This document shows, one piece after another, positions 20,037 through 26,755 of a DNA stretch of 54,330 nt. Numbering within the stretch: the stretch's first letter is position 1; each line of letters starts with the position of its first letter. The position numbers were made by a program, and so were the translations under genes. This DNA is from Dehalococcoidia bacterium (GTDB lineage: Bacteria; Chloroflexota; Dehalococcoidia; JAUSIH01). The notes beneath the pieces are model-generated. The model saw nothing but the letters and a program-made list of their open reading frames with translations, had not been told where the DNA came from and made no database searches. The stretch is taken from NCBI GenBank assembly GCA_030648205.1, contig JAUSIH010000036.1, positions 1-54,330 of the forward strand. Reading direction: 5' to 3'.

Positions 20037-20065
20037 TTGACAGGACGGCGGCGGGCGCGTAGATT
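20037..20065 (+). promoter_or_regulatory. promoter for the first UGSC selenoprotein operon
   Basis: A perfect TTGACA (20037-20042), a 17-base spacer and TAGATT (20060-20065). The selenoprotein ATG is about 82 bases beyond the expected start site, with GGAGGT just before it. Confidence 0.65.
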
Positions 20066-20152: not shown

Positions 20153-20752
20153 ATGGACAAGTTACGCATCCTTGATCCCGTGGTGGAGTCCCCGAAGGAA
20201 GACAAGGGCCTCGCGCCGCTTCTGGACAGCGTGGAGGGCAAGTCGGTTTTCTTCCGCATTCAGTGGGACGCCTATGACGTGTTCACGAACCGCTTTCGTG
20301 AGCTGCTGGAAGAACGCGCTCACCCGCGCGAGGTCACCACGCTGGACCTGCGCTACGAGTCGCCGGACTACGTGCCCTACGCCGACCGCCGCAATAAAGA
20401 GAAGTGGACGAAGAAATTCGACGGCTACGCCGCGAAGGCGGACTGGGCCGTCATGGGCCTGGCGGCCTGAGGCTCCTGCACGGCGTGGTGTATCCACGAT
20501 ACGATTGACATGCAGAAGCGCGGCGTGCCCACGGTGACGCTCGTCACCGAGCAGTTCGTCTCGCTGGCGAAGGCGGCCGCGAAGTCGCTCGGCTATCCGG
20601 ACATCCCGCTGGTCGTCGTGCCGCACCCGTTCGAGACGATGCCCCGTGACCGGGTGCGCAAGCTGGCGGAGCAGAAGTACGACGAGATTGTGGGCAAGGT
20701 GGTCAAGGCCACTCCTCATCGCGTGCCGGGGAAGCCAGAGGCGGCGCGATGA
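20153..20752 (+). CDS. UGSC-type selenoprotein 1 (in-frame UGA read as Sec106)
   Basis: The frame from ATG 20153 (TGGAGGTAGC upstream) reaches TGA at 20468-20470 and continues, in the same frame, to a TGA at 20750-20752, giving 199 residues if the first UGA is selenocysteine. The junction reads VMGLAA-U-GSCTAWCIHDTIDM, an exact UGSC motif. The second half (KRGVPTVTLVTEQF) has no start of its own that would give a full domain. The second UGSC gene at 24652 aligns on both sides of its own UGA, and a SECIS-like hairpin follows. UGSC (seleno)proteins are an annotated family without an established reaction; U-x-x-C suggests thiol/selenol redox chemistry. It overlaps the next gene by four bases (ATGA). 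Confidence 0.87.
20468..20515 (+). promoter_or_regulatory. bacterial SECIS-like element of selenoprotein 1
   Basis: A hairpin downstream of the UGA: CGTGG (20484-20488), loop TGTAT, CCACG (20494-20498), with a possible asymmetric lower stem CTGCA (20476-20480)/TGCAG (20511-20515). The apical loop starts 18 bases after the UGA and has G at its second position. This fits known bacterial SECIS rules (loop 16-37 bases from UGA, G among the first two loop bases). It would recruit SelB with Sec-tRNA. Confidence 0.72.
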
Positions 20753-21807
20753 GCGCCAGTGTCCACGAGGTTGACCAGGACATCGAGCAGGTCTTCGATT
20801 ACGCGTGCGCGCACGGCTGGAGCGACGGCCTGCCGATTATTCCGCCCACAGAGGAGCGGGTCGCGCGGATGCTGGCGGCGGCGGACCTGAAGCCGGACGC
20901 GGTGATCGCCCACCTGCCGCCGCGCAGGGGTGACGTGACGGTGGAGAAGTTGGCGGTGAATGCGGTCATGGCCGGGTGCACGCCGGCCTGCTTCCCCGTC
21001 ATCATAGCGGGAACGGAGGCGTGCGACGACCCGAACCTCAATATCTACTCCCTGAACACGACCACGAACTCCGTTGTCCCCGCGTTCATCATCAACGGCC
21101 CCATCCGAAAGGAGCTGGACATCAACTGCGGCTGGGGCTGCCTGGGGCACGGCTGGCGCGCCAATGCGACGATAGGCCGCGCGATGAGCCTGATCATGCT
21201 GAACGTGTCGGGGCGTATTCCGAAGCAGGTCTGCAAGAGCACGCACAAGCAGCCCGGCGCGTACGCCTTCTGCTTCGGCGAGTACGAGGAGCTCAGCCCG
21301 TGGGAGCCGCTGCACGTGGAGCGCGGGTTCAAGCGCGAGGACAGCACCATCACCGTGCTGGGGCCGTCGGGGACAACGAACGTGATTGACCACGACAGCC
21401 AAACGGGGGAGGATGTGCTGTACACCATAGCCTCGTCCTTGATGTGCATCGGCAGCAACAACTTCAGCCCGTACTACGGCGAGGGCGAGATGGGTGTGGT
21501 GCTGTGCCCGCCGCACGCGGACCTGATCGCCAAAGAATTTCCCACCAAACAGAAGGTGAAGGAGTTCCTGCTGCGCGAGACATCCAAGATTCCGTTGAGC
21601 TGGCTGCCGGAGCGCCGACGGAAGGCGCTGGTCAAGAAGAGCAGCGGCGGGCAGGTGCAGGGCGACTTCGCCCGCATGGCGGCCAGGGCGGACCAGTTCC
21701 TTGTCGTCGTCGCGGGAGGCCTGGGCGGCTACCACTCAGTCGTTTTGCCCACCTTTGGCACATACGCCGTGACAAAGCTCATCCACCGCCCAGCGCGAGC
21801 GGGGTAG
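20749..21807 (+). CDS. UGSC-partner protein A (unnamed conserved family)
   Basis: A 352-residue soluble protein, not assignable by me to a named family. It is clearly paralogous to the gene at 23511. Shared features are GWSDGLPIIPPTEERV (23511 copy: GWTDGLPVAPPTEERV), VEKLAVNAVMAGC, RANATIGRAMSLIMLN, STITVLG, SNNF and a C-terminal FGTYAVT. Cys residues cluster in MAGCTPAC and in INCGWGCLGHGW, the latter a C-x3-C absent from the other copy. No signal peptide or membrane segment. Its ATG overlaps the selenoprotein stop (ATGA), so the two proteins are probably made together and may form a complex. Function is unknown; a redox or lyase partner for the selenoprotein is inference. Confidence 0.82.
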   Translation: MSASVHEVDQDIEQVFDYACAHGWSDGLPIIPPTEERVARMLAAADLKPDAVIAHLPPRRGDVTVEKLAVNAVMAGCTPACFPVIIAGTEACDDPNLNIYSLNTTTNSVVPAFIINGPIRKELDINCGWGCLGHGWRANATIGRAMSLIMLNVSGRIPKQVCKSTHKQPGAYAFCFGEYEELSPWEPLHVERGFKREDSTITVLGPSGTTNVIDHDSQTGEDVLYTIASSLMCIGSNNFSPYYGEGEMGVVLCPPHADLIAKEFPTKQKVKEFLLRETSKIPLSWLPERRRKALVKKSSGGQVQGDFARMAARADQFLVVVAGGLGGYHSVVLPTFGTYAVTKLIHRPARAG

Positions 21808-21857
21808 CGTACCTTCATCCTTCTGGTCACGCTCCAGGGCGGCCTGGACAGGTCTTT

Positions 21858-21874
21858 GCCCCGCTTTGCGGGGC
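21858..21874 (+). terminator. possible terminator hairpin after partner A
   Basis: GCCCCGC-TTT-GCGGGGC, a 7-bp perfect stem with a three-base loop, 50 bases after the stop codon. No U-run follows, so it may only pause or stabilise the transcript. Confidence 0.4.
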
Positions 21875-22013
21875 CGTGCCCGTGGTAGAGTGCGCTGCTC
21901 TCCTTGACTGTTCAGCCCAGCGAGGAGACACACGCCACATGCCACACTGTGGCCGTGCGCCGCGCATCGGCGGGGCGAGACGGGCACAGATTATTTGAGC
22001 GACGAGGTGCGTT

Positions 22014-23384
22014 ATGAGCCTGGAAGCGCGTATCGCCAAACACGCCGCCGCGGTGCGATTCGAGGACTTGCCCAGGGAAGCAGTGGATGCGGCGAAGAAA
22101 GAAATACTGTGGGCGCTGGGCACCTCCGTCGCGGGCGCGGGCGCGACCGGCTCTGAGATGGTGCTGACAGTGGTGCGCGAGCTCAGCCGAGGTTGCACCG
22201 GCGACGCTACCATCATTGGGTACGAAGAGCGGGCGCCGGCGCTGCTGGCGGGCTTCGCCAACGGAGTGTTCGCCAAGGCCGTCGAATACGAGGACAAGCA
22301 CTGGTTTGGCAACACGCACGCCTACGCCATCGGCGTCGCGGTGGTGCCCGCGGCCTTCGCTGTTGGCGAGCATCTGGGCGGTGTTGATGGCAAGGCGCTG
22401 GTCAATGCCGTGGCGGTGGCGACGGATGTTCAGGCGCGCCTCGTCAATGGGGCGCCCAATGCCATCAAAACGCCCTTCAACGCCACCTATATGTTCTCGC
22501 ACTTCGGGGCGACTATCGCGGCGGCCAAGCTCCTTCGCTTGACGGAAGAGCAGATGATTGATGCCCTGGGTATCGCCTATACACAGGCGGCGGGCACCTT
22601 TCAGGCCCATCACGAAGGAACCCTGGCCGTCCGCATGCAGATGGGCTTCTGCGTTCGCAATGGCGTCTTCGCCGCGCTCATGGCGAGGGCCGGCATAGAT
22701 GGCCCCCACCAGTTCCTGACCGGGCGCAGTGGCCTGTACCCAAGCTTCTATAAGGAGTGCGCTGAAGAAGCCATCGTGAAAGACCTGGGGGCTATGTTCT
22801 GGGGAACGAGGCTGGGCTTCAAGGGCTATCCCTGCTGCGCCGCCATGCACCAGGCCCTGGATGCGATGTTCCAGGTGAAGCAGGCCCATAAGATCAGGCC
22901 GGAGCAGGTCGTGGCCGTTGACGTCTACGGCTCCCCCAGCATGGCTATTACCTGTGCACCAATTGAGGAGAAGCGGCGCCCACGGAATCACGTGGAGCAG
23001 GAGTTCAGCCTGCCGTGGGCGGCGGCCTGCGCCCTGACAGACGACCGTCTCGACCTGAGCCACTTCCAGGACGCCGCTCTGAAGGACGCGGCGAAGATGG
23101 CCCTCGCGCGGAAAGTCACCGCACACACAGACCCGAAGGACGCCCAAGTCTATGCGGTTGTCACGCTGACCGATGGCCGGAAGCTCACGTCGGCGCGCAT
23201 AGGCCCGCCAACGGGGCACCCCGATAAGCCGATTCCCCTTGCGGAGCTTATCAGACGCTACGACGACTGTGTGACATACAGCCCCCGGCCTCTGGCTCAC
23301 GAGAAGACAAAGCGAGCAAGAGACCTGGTGCTGGCGCTTCCGGACGTTCCGGACGCAACGGAGGCGATAAAGCTGCTTGCCTGA
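22014..23384 (+). CDS. MmgE/PrpD-family protein
   Basis: A 456-residue protein with the all-helical N-terminal MmgE/PrpD domain and the alpha/beta C-terminal domain. Typical segments are LPREAVDAAKKEILWALGTSVAGAG (residue run split here: EILWALGTSVAGAG), GFANGVFAKAVEYEDKHW, AYAIGVAVVPAAFAVGE, GTFQAHHEGTLAVRMQMGFC and GFKGYPCCAAMHQALD. Known members are 2-methylcitrate dehydratase and cis-aconitate decarboxylase; many are uncharacterised isomerases or dehydratases. It lies between the two mirrored selenoprotein modules, so a shared pathway for an organic acid is likely but unproven. GAGGTG precedes the ATG. Confidence 0.9.
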   Translation: MSLEARIAKHAAAVRFEDLPREAVDAAKKEILWALGTSVAGAGATGSEMVLTVVRELSRGCTGDATIIGYEERAPALLAGFANGVFAKAVEYEDKHWFGNTHAYAIGVAVVPAAFAVGEHLGGVDGKALVNAVAVATDVQARLVNGAPNAIKTPFNATYMFSHFGATIAAAKLLRLTEEQMIDALGIAYTQAAGTFQAHHEGTLAVRMQMGFCVRNGVFAALMARAGIDGPHQFLTGRSGLYPSFYKECAEEAIVKDLGAMFWGTRLGFKGYPCCAAMHQALDAMFQVKQAHKIRPEQVVAVDVYGSPSMAITCAPIEEKRRPRNHVEQEFSLPWAAACALTDDRLDLSHFQDAALKDAAKMALARKVTAHTDPKDAQVYAVVTLTDGRKLTSARIGPPTGHPDKPIPLAELIRRYDDCVTYSPRPLAHEKTKRARDLVLALPDVPDATEAIKLLA

Positions 23385-23441
23385 GGATTGCCTGTCTGGA
23401 CCGCCACGCGCGGGACAAACACCCGCCAATATGCACCAAAG

Positions 23442-23470
23442 TTGCCCCGTCACGTGCGAGGGAATATAAT
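23442..23470 (+). promoter_or_regulatory. strong promoter for the second UGSC operon
   Basis: TTGCCC (23442-23447), a 17-base spacer and a perfect TATAAT (23465-23470). Transcription would start near 23477, about 34 bases before the ATG, which has TAGGAGG upstream. Confidence 0.75.
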
Positions 23471-23510
23471 CGCACCGCGAAGTTCCAGCGCGTCCCCATA
23501 GGAGGCTGCC

Positions 23511-24632
23511 ATGACCTCAGGCCAAACCTCAGCCAAGGTCCTCGAATTCACCGATGCCTGGGACTGGCTTGACCACGCCTATCAGAACGGATGGACCGAT
23601 GGCCTGCCAGTCGCGCCACCCACGGAGGAGCGCGTCGGCGCAATGGTCGAACACGTAAAGCGCCGCCCGGACGAGCTGCTCGGCCTCATTCCGCCTATGC
23701 AGGGCAAGGCGACCCTCGAGAAGGTCGCCATCCAGGCCGTGATGGCGGGCTGCGCGCCCGAGCACTTCACGGTCGTCCTCGCCGCACTGGAGTGCATGCT
23801 CTGCGAGGAGGACAAGGAGCACTTCAACCTCAAGGGAGTGCAGGACACCACGAACCCCGTCACGCCGCTGGTCATTGTCAGCGGCCCGGCGGTCAAGCAG
23901 CTTGGCTTCCACTACAAAGAGAACGCCTTCGGCGGCGTCTCCCGCGCCAACGCCGCGGTGGGTCGGGCCGTGCGGCTTATCCTGTGGAACCTCGGCGGCG
24001 CCCGCCCCGGACAGACGGACATGACGCATCTGGGCCATCCCGGCAAGTACTCGTTCTGCATCGCCGAGAACCCGGACATGGAAGAGAACCCGTGGACGAA
24101 GCTGAACGTCGAGTGGGGCTACCCCGCCGACCAGAGCACCGTCACCGTCTTCGGCTGCGAGGCGCCGCGCAACGTCCTGACGCTCACCTCCGTGGGCCGC
24201 GAGGGCAACCCCGGCCCGGAGCGCGCTCTGCGCTTCATCGCCCGGAGCATGTCCACGCCCGGCTCCAACAACTTCCACTTCATGGGGCAGGTACTGGTCA
24301 CCTTCGGCCCGCGCACCGTTGCGCAGTTGCACCAGGCGCGCTATACCAAAGAGACCGTCCGCCGCTTCCTGTTCGACCAGGCGCGCAACCGCCTCGGCGA
24401 CCTTATCCGCGACGGCTTCTACAACCCCGCCGTGGGCAATGACACGTGGCGGGACTACGCCCCCTGGGTTGACCAGACGAACCCGCAGACGATGGTGCCC
24501 ATCGTCGAGCGCGAGGCGAACATCCATATCACCGTCACCGGCGCGGCGAGCCTGCCCTGGAACTCCGTCTGCCACGGTTGGGGCAACTTCGGCGCGTACG
24601 CGGTGACTCGGCCCATCAAGTTCCCCAAGTAG
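23511..24632 (+). CDS. UGSC-partner protein B (paralogue of partner A)
   Basis: A 373-residue soluble protein, the second member of the unnamed family. It shares GWTDGLPVAPPTEERV, LEKVAIQAVMAGCAP, SRANAAVGRAVRLILWNL, STVTVFG, SNNFHFMGQ and the C-terminal GNFGAYAVTRPIKFP with the copy at 20749. Differences are informative: it has ECMLCEE (C-x2-C) and lacks the CGWGC segment, and it carries an extra region near WRDYAPWVDQTNPQTM. It starts its own transcript and is followed after 19 bases by selenoprotein 2, the reverse order of the first module. A complex with the selenoprotein is a reasonable guess; no reaction is known to me. Confidence 0.82.
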   Translation: MTSGQTSAKVLEFTDAWDWLDHAYQNGWTDGLPVAPPTEERVGAMVEHVKRRPDELLGLIPPMQGKATLEKVAIQAVMAGCAPEHFTVVLAALECMLCEEDKEHFNLKGVQDTTNPVTPLVIVSGPAVKQLGFHYKENAFGGVSRANAAVGRAVRLILWNLGGARPGQTDMTHLGHPGKYSFCIAENPDMEENPWTKLNVEWGYPADQSTVTVFGCEAPRNVLTLTSVGREGNPGPERALRFIARSMSTPGSNNFHFMGQVLVTFGPRTVAQLHQARYTKETVRRFLFDQARNRLGDLIRDGFYNPAVGNDTWRDYAPWVDQTNPQTMVPIVEREANIHITVTGAASLPWNSVCHGWGNFGAYAVTRPIKFPK

Positions 24633-24651
24633 TTGAAGGAGGCAAACCGTC

Positions 24652-25233
24652 ATGATGAAGCTTCGAGTCCTCGACCCCACGGGTGAGGCGGCGCAGCCGG
24701 AGAGCAAGCTGGCGCCGCGCCCCACGGACCTCACCGGCAAGGTGCTGTGGTTTGTGGACGGCCGCGGCCATGTGGAGAACAGCGTGCCGGGAATGAACCG
24801 CATCTTCCGCGTCTGGAAGGAGCGACTCCAGAAGGAGTACAAGCTCGGCGACGTGCGCTACGTGCGGACGGACAACATCGCCTCGCCGTTCCGCCACGGC
24901 AAAGAGACGTTCGAGGAGATCGTCCGGACGGCAGACGTGGTCGTCAACGGCGTTGCGCTCTGAGGCGGCTGCACGTCGTGCAGTGTGCACGATGCAGTCC
25001 AGATGGAGCGGCGCGGCGTGCCGACCGTCACCCTCGCCCACGACGTCTTCGAGAGGGCCGCGCACGCCCAGGCGAAGGTCATGGGGGCGCCGGACCTGCC
25101 CATCGCAGTCGTCTCCCAGCTCATCTACAACCGTGGCACGGACGAAGAGGTGAAGAAGGCGGCGGACGCGCTATACCCGCTGGTGGTGAAGAGCCTGACC
25201 TCCGGCGTCGCGAAGCCTCTGCCGCAAAGGTAG
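24652..25233 (+). CDS. UGSC-type selenoprotein 2 (in-frame UGA read as Sec104)
   Basis: From ATG 24652 (GAAGGAGG upstream) the frame meets TGA at 24961-24963 and continues without shift to TAG at 25231, giving 193 residues. The junction reads NGVAL-U-GGCTSCSVHDAVQM, a UGGC variant that also forms U-x2-C-x2-C. It matches selenoprotein 1 on both sides: KLRVLDP at the N-terminus, then HDxxxMxxRGVPTVTL after the Sec. The compact hairpin after the UGA is listed separately. U-x2-C-x2-C recalls the redox centre of glycine-reductase-type selenoproteins as I remember it, but there is no other similarity to claim. A coding-like tail follows the TAG. Confidence 0.87.
24961..24997 (+). promoter_or_regulatory. 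bacterial SECIS-like element of selenoprotein 2
   Basis: An upper stem TCGTGC (24976-24981), loop AGTGT and GCACGA (24987-24992) is stacked on a lower stem CTGCA (24969-24973)/TGCAG (24993-24997) with a 2-base bulge. The loop begins 18 bases after the UGA, exactly as in selenoprotein 1, with G at its second position. Confidence 0.8.
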
Positions 25234-25370: not shown

Positions 25371-25622
25371 ATGACCCTGAAAGAAGAAATTCACCGGCTG
25401 ATTGACGTGCTGCCCGAGAAAGAGTTGCCGACAGTGCGTCGTTTCGTGCAGTACGTCCGGCTCCTCCATGAGGACCCCGTTTTCCGCGCGCTTCTGGAGG
25501 CGCCTCTGGACGACGAGCCGGAGACCCCGAAGGAAGCAGCCGCCGTACGCGCAGCGCGGCGCGCGTTGAAGCGCGGCGATGTCGTCGCGGACGCCGACCT
25601 CGCCCGCGAGCTGGGGCTGTGA
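25371..25622 (+). CDS. type II antitoxin (partner of ParE/RelE-type toxin)
   Basis: An 83-residue acidic protein beginning MTLKEEIHRLIDVLPEKEL. The helical N-terminus (LPTVRRFVQYVRLL) resembles the DUF2281-like/RHH-like antitoxins. The charged C-terminal half (ALKRGDVVADADLARELGL) would wrap the toxin. AAGGAG stands before the ATG. Its stop overlaps the toxin GTG by four bases, typical of antitoxin-toxin pairs. The family is assigned mainly by position and size. Confidence 0.8.
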   Translation: MTLKEEIHRLIDVLPEKELPTVRRFVQYVRLLHEDPVFRALLEAPLDDEPETPKEAAAVRAARRALKRGDVVADADLARELGL

Positions 25623-25876
25623 CTTGGCGCGTCATCTGGACAGGCCCGGCCGCTCACGATATGCGCCGGCTGGACCGCCAGATAGCGAAACGCATCCGCG
25701 ACAGGGCCCTGCGCTTCGCCGAAACGGGACAGGGGGACATCAAACGGCTGCAAGGACATGAACAGGAGTGGCGCTTGCGCGTCGGAGACTGGCGCGTGAG
25801 GCTGACCTTCGACGTCCACGACGGAACAATGAACATCCTGCGGATTCACCATCGCAGCGAGGGATATCGGAAATAG
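25619..25876 (+). CDS. ParE/RelE-superfamily toxin
   Basis: An 85-residue basic protein starting at GTG 25619. It has the RelE/ParE fold pattern: WRVIWTGPAAHDMRRLD, GDIKRLQGHEQEWRLRVGDW and VRLTFDVHDGTMNILRIHHR, ending EGYRK. RelE members cut mRNA at the ribosome and ParE members poison gyrase; which applies here cannot be read from sequence. It is co-transcribed with the antitoxin just upstream. Together they form a small addiction module next to the selenoprotein block. Confidence 0.88.
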   Translation: MTWRVIWTGPAAHDMRRLDRQIAKRIRDRALRFAETGQGDIKRLQGHEQEWRLRVGDWRVRLTFDVHDGTMNILRIHHRSEGYRK

Positions 25877-25907
25877 AAAAGGAGCAGTCGTAATCGCAGG
25901 AATATGA

Positions 25908-26027
25908 CGGCCGCTGGACGAAGGCGTCCCGCCGAACGAGGCGGTGGCGCGCGTGGTGCGGGAGACGGGCCTACGGCGTCGCGACGTGTACGCGCTGCGG
26001 ATGCGGATGGGGAAGGGGCGCGGATAG
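25908..26027 (+). pseudogene. rsmI C-terminal fragment
   Basis: A 39-residue open stretch without a start codon. It ends DEGVPPNEAVARVVRETG and LRRRDVYALRMRMGKGRG before TAG. This matches the C-terminal helix-turn-helix segment of RsmI (16S rRNA 2'-O-methyltransferase; typically EGLSPKEAVKEVA-type). The catalytic domain is absent upstream, where the toxin gene ends only 31 bases before. It therefore looks like the tail left behind after insertion or rearrangement. Assignment is by pattern memory only. Confidence 0.6.
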
Positions 26028-26092
26028 GCGCGAGACTCCGCGGCGAAGGGCGGACGACGGATAGACCTTTGTATTCCAAAAGAAGCGGATAT

Positions 26093-26755
26093 ATGGATGA
26101 TCTAGACCCCGTTCTTGTTGCCAAATTCCAAAAGATGCTTAAGATACTTGAATACCACCTATGGGCAGCAAATACGCATCTCAACATCTGGCAAGCGCTT
26201 ATGTCGTCGCCTGGAAAGCTGCGCCTGTGTCACACCTATACCGGTTTCTTCTATTGGACTAGGGATGCACATATTGACCGTTTGGTGATAAAGATATGCG
26301 TTGCCACCGACGACCGCGATAAAGATCAGCCAAGCATACACAAGCTCTTGAGGCTCGCTAAACGCCATCCAAAACTGGCCGAAACCCTGGACACCTCTGC
26401 AATTGAGAGCAAGCTGACGCAAATCAGTACAGAACTAAAAGCGATCCTAGACGTAAGGGACCAACGCAGTGGCCATTGGGATATGAAGAAAGACCCGCCG
26501 CTGCCTAATGCAGAAGATATTAAGAAGGTGCTGGCCATTTTAGGTGAGATCTACAACGACATTTACAATGCGCATCACCCTCCACCGCCCAAGGTGGACT
26601 TTCCCTTTCCGCAAGGTTTTTCCATTCCGCAAGAAATGACACTATCCCCACGGCACTTAACCCCGTTGGATAAGGAAGGGACAACCCATACTGATTATGT
26701 CATGAATGTGCTTATTAAGGCTCACCCACACCTGAAGGAGACGAAAGGCGAGTAG
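26093..26755 (+). CDS. HEPN-domain protein, AbiU2-like
   Basis: About 220 residues from ATG 26093 (MDDLDPVLVAKFQKMLK). The open frame extends upstream, but that part overlaps the rsmI remnant. It contains the AbiU2-like pattern: RDAHIDRLVIKICVATD followed by SIHKLLRLAKRHP, and then ILDVRDQRSGHWD, where Arg122-x5-His128 fits the HEPN R-x(4-6)-H RNase motif. AbiU2-type proteins are linked to phage abortive infection. The gene is much richer in A/T than its neighbours, pointing to recent transfer. It stands beside a toxin-antitoxin pair, as in a small defence hotspot. No partner nucleotidyltransferase is adjacent. Confidence 0.75.
   Translation: MDDLDPVLVAKFQKMLKILEYHLWAANTHLNIWQALMSSPGKLRLCHTYTGFFYWTRDAHIDRLVIKICVATDDRDKDQPSIHKLLRLAKRHPKLAETLDTSAIESKLTQISTELKAILDVRDQRSGHWDMKKDPPLPNAEDIKKVLAILGEIYNDIYNAHHPPPPKVDFPFPQGFSIPQEMTLSPRHLTPLDKEGTTHTDYVMNVLIKAHPHLKETKGE

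Follow-up and report, generated by a model that had tools for sequence, protein, structure and literature searches.

A UGSC-family selenoprotein and a partner protein of an unnamed family form a real, recurrent unit, which occurs twice in the window analyzed here, a 54,330-nucleotide stretch of DNA from a Dehalococcoidia bacterium of the phylum Chloroflexota (GenBank assembly GCA_030648205.1, contig JAUSIH010000036.1, positions 1 to 54,330). The genomes compared are metagenome-assembled genomes. The one that contains the window, hereafter the source genome, holds 46 UGSC genes, of which 41 carry UGA, alongside 56 partner genes, and, two contig-end fragments aside, only a single UGSC gene (on contig C102) has no neighboring partner. 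The two pairs of the window count among about 45 diverged copies of the UGSC-partner pair in the source genome. Linkage in other organisms, scored as a UGSC gene on the same strand within 600 nt of a partner gene that does not lie at a locus edge, was surveyed in 80 loci from Beta-, Alpha-, and Gammaproteobacteria, deltaproteobacterial lineages, Rokubacteria, Binatota, Nitrospinae, and one haloarchaeon. It was near-constant, with a UGSC gene beside 79 of the 95 non-edge partner genes; 72 of these UGSC genes carried UGA, 3 a cysteine codon, and 4 no recognizable motif. The same linkage was found for 85 of the 94 best UGSC genes of a relative, JACPQD01 ("Chloroflexi bacterium NC_groundwater_644", 5.0 Mb). 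In-frame UGSC-partner fusions were flagged by our script in 30 cases, 26 clean ones being carried forward, and the AlphaFold2 (AF2) model of a natural fusion of 571 aa (pLDDT 94.8, pTM 0.94) predicts a single well-ordered unit whose two domains are confidently placed relative to each other.

A mirror-tree comparison of 41 paralogous pairs from the source genome revealed that UGSC and partner distances were correlated (r = 0.667), a value reached in none of 2,000 permutations (permuted maximum 0.336). Because all compared pairs are paralogues of one genome, the species tree cannot explain this correlation, and the sequence distances indicate that the UGSC and partner paralogues have co-duplicated. 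The two proteins very probably act together. The first-pass annotation, made from the DNA letters of the window, had proposed two UGSC-partner complexes and had named partners usually occurring without UGSC genes, or incongruent paired trees, as observations that would speak against them; we found partners mostly accompanied by UGSC genes and paired distances that agree. The proposal thus holds for the module itself, which is linked, fused, co-duplicated, and modeled as one unit when fused, and fails for the two pairs as one system, as set out below.

The UGSC family (PF24696/NF041046) has been described so far as a single uncharacterized redox protein, and we found neither its constant partner nor its mass expansion described in the open-access papers searched. 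It has been known since at least the 2008 Global Ocean Sampling (GOS) survey, whose Fig. S1A depicts a fusion of UGSC to "Unknown_1", a domain of unknown function with conserved Cys (PMC2398784). This domain is probably the present partner; that survey notes the fusion only and reports no linkage, expansion, or co-duplication. The haloarchaeal locus (L088, Natrialba asiatica) carries a Cys-form pair that groups with Cys forms of Sphingomonadales, which suggests transfer of a selenocysteine-free version.

Selenocysteine decoding

Three tests, namely the presence of decoding machinery, a recurrent single TGA, and a conserved hairpin, indicate that the UGAs of the window are selenocysteine (Sec) codons, with Sec insertion being predicted. 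The source genome encodes tRNA-Sec (69 bits, contig C102) and SelB (351 bits), and a SelA match (PF03841, 4.8e-135) lies among the neighboring open reading frames (ORFs) of its pairs. The 41 UGA-containing UGSC genes each have exactly one in-frame TGA, and 41 TGA contexts were recovered from UGSC domains. A hairpin with a GU loop stands at a fixed distance, nucleotides 16 to 32 after the T of the TGA; across 120 homologues, 87.9% of cells are paired in this register, whereas slid registers do not exceed 54%, and codon-preserving shuffles gave 82.0 ± 0.6%, none of 500 reaching the observed value. The hairpin covaries through G-C/C-G exchanges at two stem positions, with further compensatory stem changes in JACPQD01 (for example CGTGG..CCACG, CGTTG..CAACG, and CATGG..CCATG). 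Single-sequence folding energies were poor evidence for a Sec insertion sequence (SECIS) element (mean z of -0.9 in the genes of the source genome), and the fixed-register covariation test was therefore needed.

A second tRNA-Sec-like match above the Rfam cut-off (52.8 bits) was observed at C40:2765-2856 of the source genome. The lone UGSC selenoprotein gene (C102:16143-16643) lies 1.5 kb from tRNA-Sec and adjoins an SBP_bac_5 receptor gene and an MFS gene. A SelA gene adjoining tRNA-Sec on C102 was considered and rejected, as that ORF encodes an MFS protein.

Kinship of the UGSC protein and the proposed chemistry

Among 40 UGSC proteins, the best non-self profiles were those of GrdB and PrdB, with weak matches to TIGR01917 (GrdB) in 20 (best 1.3e-4) and to PrdB in 8. 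Profile alignment with the C-terminal Sec domain of GrdB/PrdB (hhalign probability 94%, E of 1.3e-7, 70 columns around the Sec motif) and a common arrangement, in which Sec-x-x-Cys, flanked by a strand and a helix, is followed by an "E-x-x-G-(I/V)-P" segment as in PF07355, point to a remote relationship of UGSC with this domain of glycine and D-proline reductases. UGSC is nevertheless, by its sequence, not a GrdB: PF07355 has no match above its cut-off in the source genome, where all 46 UGSC genes reside, and the N-terminal domain of GrdB is missing. Nor does the partner replace that domain; it is unrelated to GrdB, and its identification as the GrdB N-terminal domain or GrdE was rejected, given that it has no relation to GrdB profiles, no Pfam match, and no relative among PDB sequences. 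In relatives, small GrdB/PrdB-like proteins (L179, L180, L182-L184, L186-L188, L190, and L194) have an in-frame TGA shortly past a "VDAVLLTP"-like segment; these are probable Sec-containing PrdB-like proteins with a UPxC motif, some with an added C-terminal domain.

The kinship bears on whether UGSC might instead be a general thiol-disulfide or peroxide oxidoreductase, engaged in thioredoxin-like redox housekeeping with the partner as its client or reductant. Thiol oxidoreductases make up most UxxC selenoproteins, UGSC shares this motif, and its treatment in the GOS survey assumed a thioredoxin-like fold (PMC2398784). Our AF2 model, however, predicts an alternating alpha/beta domain in which Sec begins a helix that follows a strand, and its 50 best PDB fold matches, all weak and including flavodoxins and receiver domains, contained no thioredoxin, for which reason the thioredoxin-like fold was rejected. 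The nearest profiles are likewise those of GrdB/PrdB rather than thioredoxin, and housekeeping would leave 40 to 150 diverged, co-duplicated pairs and their adjoining receptors unexplained. We consider such an oxidoreductase improbable.

The partner family has no Pfam, NCBIfam, or PDB-sequence relative (the Pfam search covering 58 members). Residues D26, C77, N139, R144, and E178 are shared by all 84 partner sequences compared, and C175 by 73 of them. These invariants are kept even in fused copies without a Sec/Cys motif, and the partner therefore looks like a substrate-binding or catalytic body. Because Cys77 is invariant and Cys175 conserved at 90%, a Sec residue facing a Cys-lined pocket, as the first-pass annotation had envisaged, is plausible from the sequences.

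We tentatively favor, at a little under even chances, the reading that the pairs are GrdB-like selenium reductases that act on small molecules brought into the cell and have diversified in substrate. Each UGSC and partner pair would encode a two-subunit selenoenzyme, in which the partner would hold a small organic molecule taken up by the cell, probably a carboxylate or another ligand of the TctC or Opp type, and the Sec of UGSC would attack or reduce this substrate in a nucleophilic step resembling that of GrdB/PrdB. The resolving Cys of UGSC would pair with Sec, possibly with involvement of C77 and C175 of the partner, and the resulting Sec-Cys selenylsulfide would then be reopened by a thiol donor. 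By analogy with GrdB/PrdB and a fluoroacetate system, the likely reaction would be the reductive cleavage of a C-X bond, and the paralogues would differ in substrate. A GrdB-like operon of Cloacibacillus has been implicated in C-F cleavage of fluoroacetate (PMC10838667); it resembles the proposed system in pairing a GrdB-like protein with the reductive cleavage of a small acid that is not an amino acid, whereas its protein is, according to that paper, related to true GrdB and is not described as UGSC. Reductive, GrdB-like chemistry in itself likewise stands at a little under even chances.

Several observations weigh against this selenium reductase. The homology between UGSC and GrdB is short (70 columns) and remote, with the GrdB N-terminal domain and substrate-binding context missing, and UGSC function is so far without an experimental assignment. 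The pyruvoyl subunit GrdE/PrdA (PF09338) was found in none of five genomes, in a search without a positive control. The closest PDB folds of the partner (AF2 model of partner A of the window, pLDDT 94.2) belong to non-reductases, namely class I fumarase and the "Toblerone" cyclic amide hydrolases, and resemble it weakly, at a template modeling (TM) score of about 0.2. Moreover, at least four fused copies have neither Sec nor a Cys pair at the UGSC motif (L027:614-2269, L039:4834-6456, L040:4872-6620, and L055:3048-4736), and since they retain the partner invariants, the partner may carry out a chemistry independent of UGSC. The motif-less lineage of L040 and L055 is common to two genomes.

These last points lend themselves to a different division of labor, in which the partner is the real enzyme, a hydratase, lyase, or hydrolase using C77, D26, E178, and other residues, while UGSC is a subunit with a regulatory or structural role, its Sec serving as a redox switch or metal ligand. 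Conservation of the partner residues in 84 of 84 sequences regardless of the UGSC motif, the best folds just named, and partners that stand alone (16 of the 95 non-edge partners elsewhere; 56 partner versus 46 UGSC genes in the source genome) would all fit. The likeness to class I fumarate hydratase is slight, however: the best Foldseek match has an E value of 2.7e-4 but a TM score of 0.23 and a root-mean-square deviation of 18, and none of the 58 members has a Pfam fumarase match. Sec/Cys-x-x-Cys is kept in 75 of 79 linked cases and in 41 of 46 genes of the source genome, and this retention, despite the cost of Sec, argues for catalysis by UGSC. We regard the partner as sole catalyst as unlikely.

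Solute receptors beside the pairs

In other phyla, TctC receptors account for 30 of 125 ORFs beside pairs but for 9 of 125 more distant ORFs of the same loci (p = 0.0004), while in the source genome SBP_bac_5 receptors account for 11 of 113 neighboring ORFs, against no more than 1 among 112 ORFs of control regions (p = 0.005). This enrichment next door points to small molecules taken up from outside as the probable substrates of the UGSC-partner enzyme, and the expansions appear to reflect diversification for different substrates. Known ligands of TctC are small carboxylates. Quinolinate has been reported as a TctC ligand (PMC11452294).

Receptors could alternatively be read as a sign that the pairs handle selenium, metals, or metalloids, a role proposed for the SAO/Tso selenoproteins, with the UGSC-partner complex binding or reducing metal species delivered by NikA/Opp-type receptors. 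The Cys/Sec residues are conserved, and one SBP_bac_5 neighbor scores best against NikA-type profiles, albeit below their cut-offs. The receptor enriched in other phyla is TctC, however, with its carboxylate ligands, and dozens of paralogues would be hard to account for by metals, making metal handling quite improbable. The partner, the fusions, the GrdB link, and the receptors together make the function of the orphan UGSC family directly testable.

Scale of the expansion

In a survey of the phylum, UGSC genes were present in 42 of 400 genomes, mostly in 1 to 8 copies (copy numbers being capped at 8 scored candidates per genome), with two outliers: the source genome (46 UGSC genes in 2.7 Mb) and JACPQD01. 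The latter encodes SelB and holds at least 150 partner genes and, from 208 candidates, at least 150 UGSC genes, at least 146 of them with an in-frame TGA. Thirty JACPQD01 copies, among loci L133-L162, were checked, and each had one UGA at the motif together with the hairpin; on account of their pairwise identity (median 37%, maximum 74%), we rejected an origin of the expansion in assembly duplication. Because 13 of the 94 best copies share one long contig, contamination (7%) is not the cause of the count.

The published maximum for bacterial selenoprotein genes is 57 to 63, the upper bound of 63 coming from a 2026 review (PMC13188914), and the most selenoproteins in any organism as of 2020 were the 96 of E. 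huxleyi (PMC7539508). The count of UGA genes from one family in JACPQD01 thus exceeds the published maxima for any whole organism. With at least 41 and at least 146 UGA genes in the two genomes, the view that Sec is seldom used no longer holds for this lineage, and the UGSC expansion points to a large, unstudied, substrate-diversified selenium chemistry. Ancient expansions of catabolic paralogues are known from the SAR202/Dehalococcoidia lineage (PMC5395668, PMC10444878), although those papers mention neither UGSC nor selenoproteins. A broader and rather doubtful possibility is that the pairs constitute a new class of Sec-dependent reductive bond-cleaving enzymes, joining a GrdB-like Sec domain to a new substrate subunit and diversified by groundwater Chloroflexota of this class into tens to hundreds of substrate-specific copies, in the way that Dehalococcoides diversified its reductive dehalogenases; these Chloroflexota would then have the largest selenoproteomes known.

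The two pairs of the window

The genes of the window, all on the forward strand, have the positions and order given by the first-pass annotation when coordinates are re-derived from the sequence. Selenoprotein 1 (20153-20752; 199 aa, Sec106, motif UGSC) is preceded by the Shine-Dalgarno sequence GGAGG. Its Sec codon (20468-20470) is the sole in-frame TGA before the TGA stop at 20750-20752, and its putative bacterial SECIS-like hairpin (20483-20499; core CGTGG-TGTAT-CCACG) occupies the covarying position common to the 120 homologues. Partner A (20749-21807; 352 aa), assigned by the family profile and bearing the five invariant residues, overlaps selenoprotein 1 by four bases, as annotated (ATGA at 20749-20752). 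An MmgE/PrpD family protein follows (22014-23384; 456 aa), with both Pfam domains (PF03972, 166 bits, 1e-48; PF19305, 90 bits, 2e-25), which is not a PrpD equivalog in NCBIfam (25 versus 950 bits) and is a neighbor only, not a constant component. Partner B (23511-24632; 373 aa) belongs by profile and tree to the family of partner A, in a different clade; the two are about 33 to 35% identical and have no Pfam or NCBIfam match, in agreement with the single unnamed family annotated. Selenoprotein 2 (24655-25233; 192 aa, Sec103, motif UGGC; alternative ATG start at 24652) has its in-frame TGA at the UGGC motif (24961-24963) and a SECIS-like hairpin at 24976-24992 (TCGTGCAGTGTGCACGA).

Both selenoproteins pass PF24696 (115.2 and 136.9 bits for selenoproteins 1 and 2 against a gathering cut-off of 25), which bears out their placement in one family, and both score too low for the NF041046 equivalog (93 and 88.5 bits, cut-off 125). 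With their UGSC/UGGC motifs and SECIS-like hairpins, they are, as judged from these scores, members of the broader UGSC family but not of the curated equivalog. The promoter attributed to each module is partly substantiated: a sigma-70-like match (10 of 12 consensus positions) lies upstream of module 1 (20037-20065) and of module 2 (23442-23470), three such matches occurring in the region against 0.7 expected, although these are consensus matches only, of unproven function.

The reading of the block as one mirrored system around the MmgE/PrpD gene did not survive. In a partner tree of 114 UGSC-linked pairs, with branch support from the Shimodaira-Hasegawa-like approximate likelihood ratio test (SH-aLRT), pair 1 falls within a clade (99%) of five source-genome pairs whose selenoprotein gene comes first, and pair 2 within a clade (98%) of nine pairs, most of which have the partner gene first; gene order switches only about eight times across the tree. 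It follows that the two modules are separate paralogues of old origin, and a local inverted duplication was rejected. Of the 113 mechanically called neighboring ORFs of source-genome pairs, the one MmgE/PrpD gene is that of the window, and in other genomes MmgE/PrpD was found in 2 of 125 ORFs beside pairs versus 3 of 125 further away.

The flanking LLM and CaiB/BaiF genes, which had been taken as a sign of a degradative pathway, were about as common in control regions as beside source-genome pairs (4 versus 4 for LLM; 6 beside pairs versus 4 for CaiB/BaiF), and a conserved operon with MmgE/PrpD, LLM, and CaiB was rejected for want of enrichment. A single pathway that degrades an activated organic acid and unites both modules with these genes would suit their closeness in the window and their common membership in catabolic families. 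It is nonetheless very improbable, considering this lack of enrichment, the separate clades, the promoter-like site of each module, and most other source-genome loci, which have pairs without these neighbors. We infer that the two pairs are two enzymes with different substrates, lying near each other by chance in opposite gene order, rather than two halves of one pathway.

Directly after selenoprotein 2, the window contains a probable toxin-antitoxin pair (25371-25622 and 25619-25876), consisting of a ParE-type toxin (PF05016, 4e-9) and a small upstream gene, and a HEPN/AbiU2-like protein is encoded at 25904-26755 (PF18734, 7e-9).

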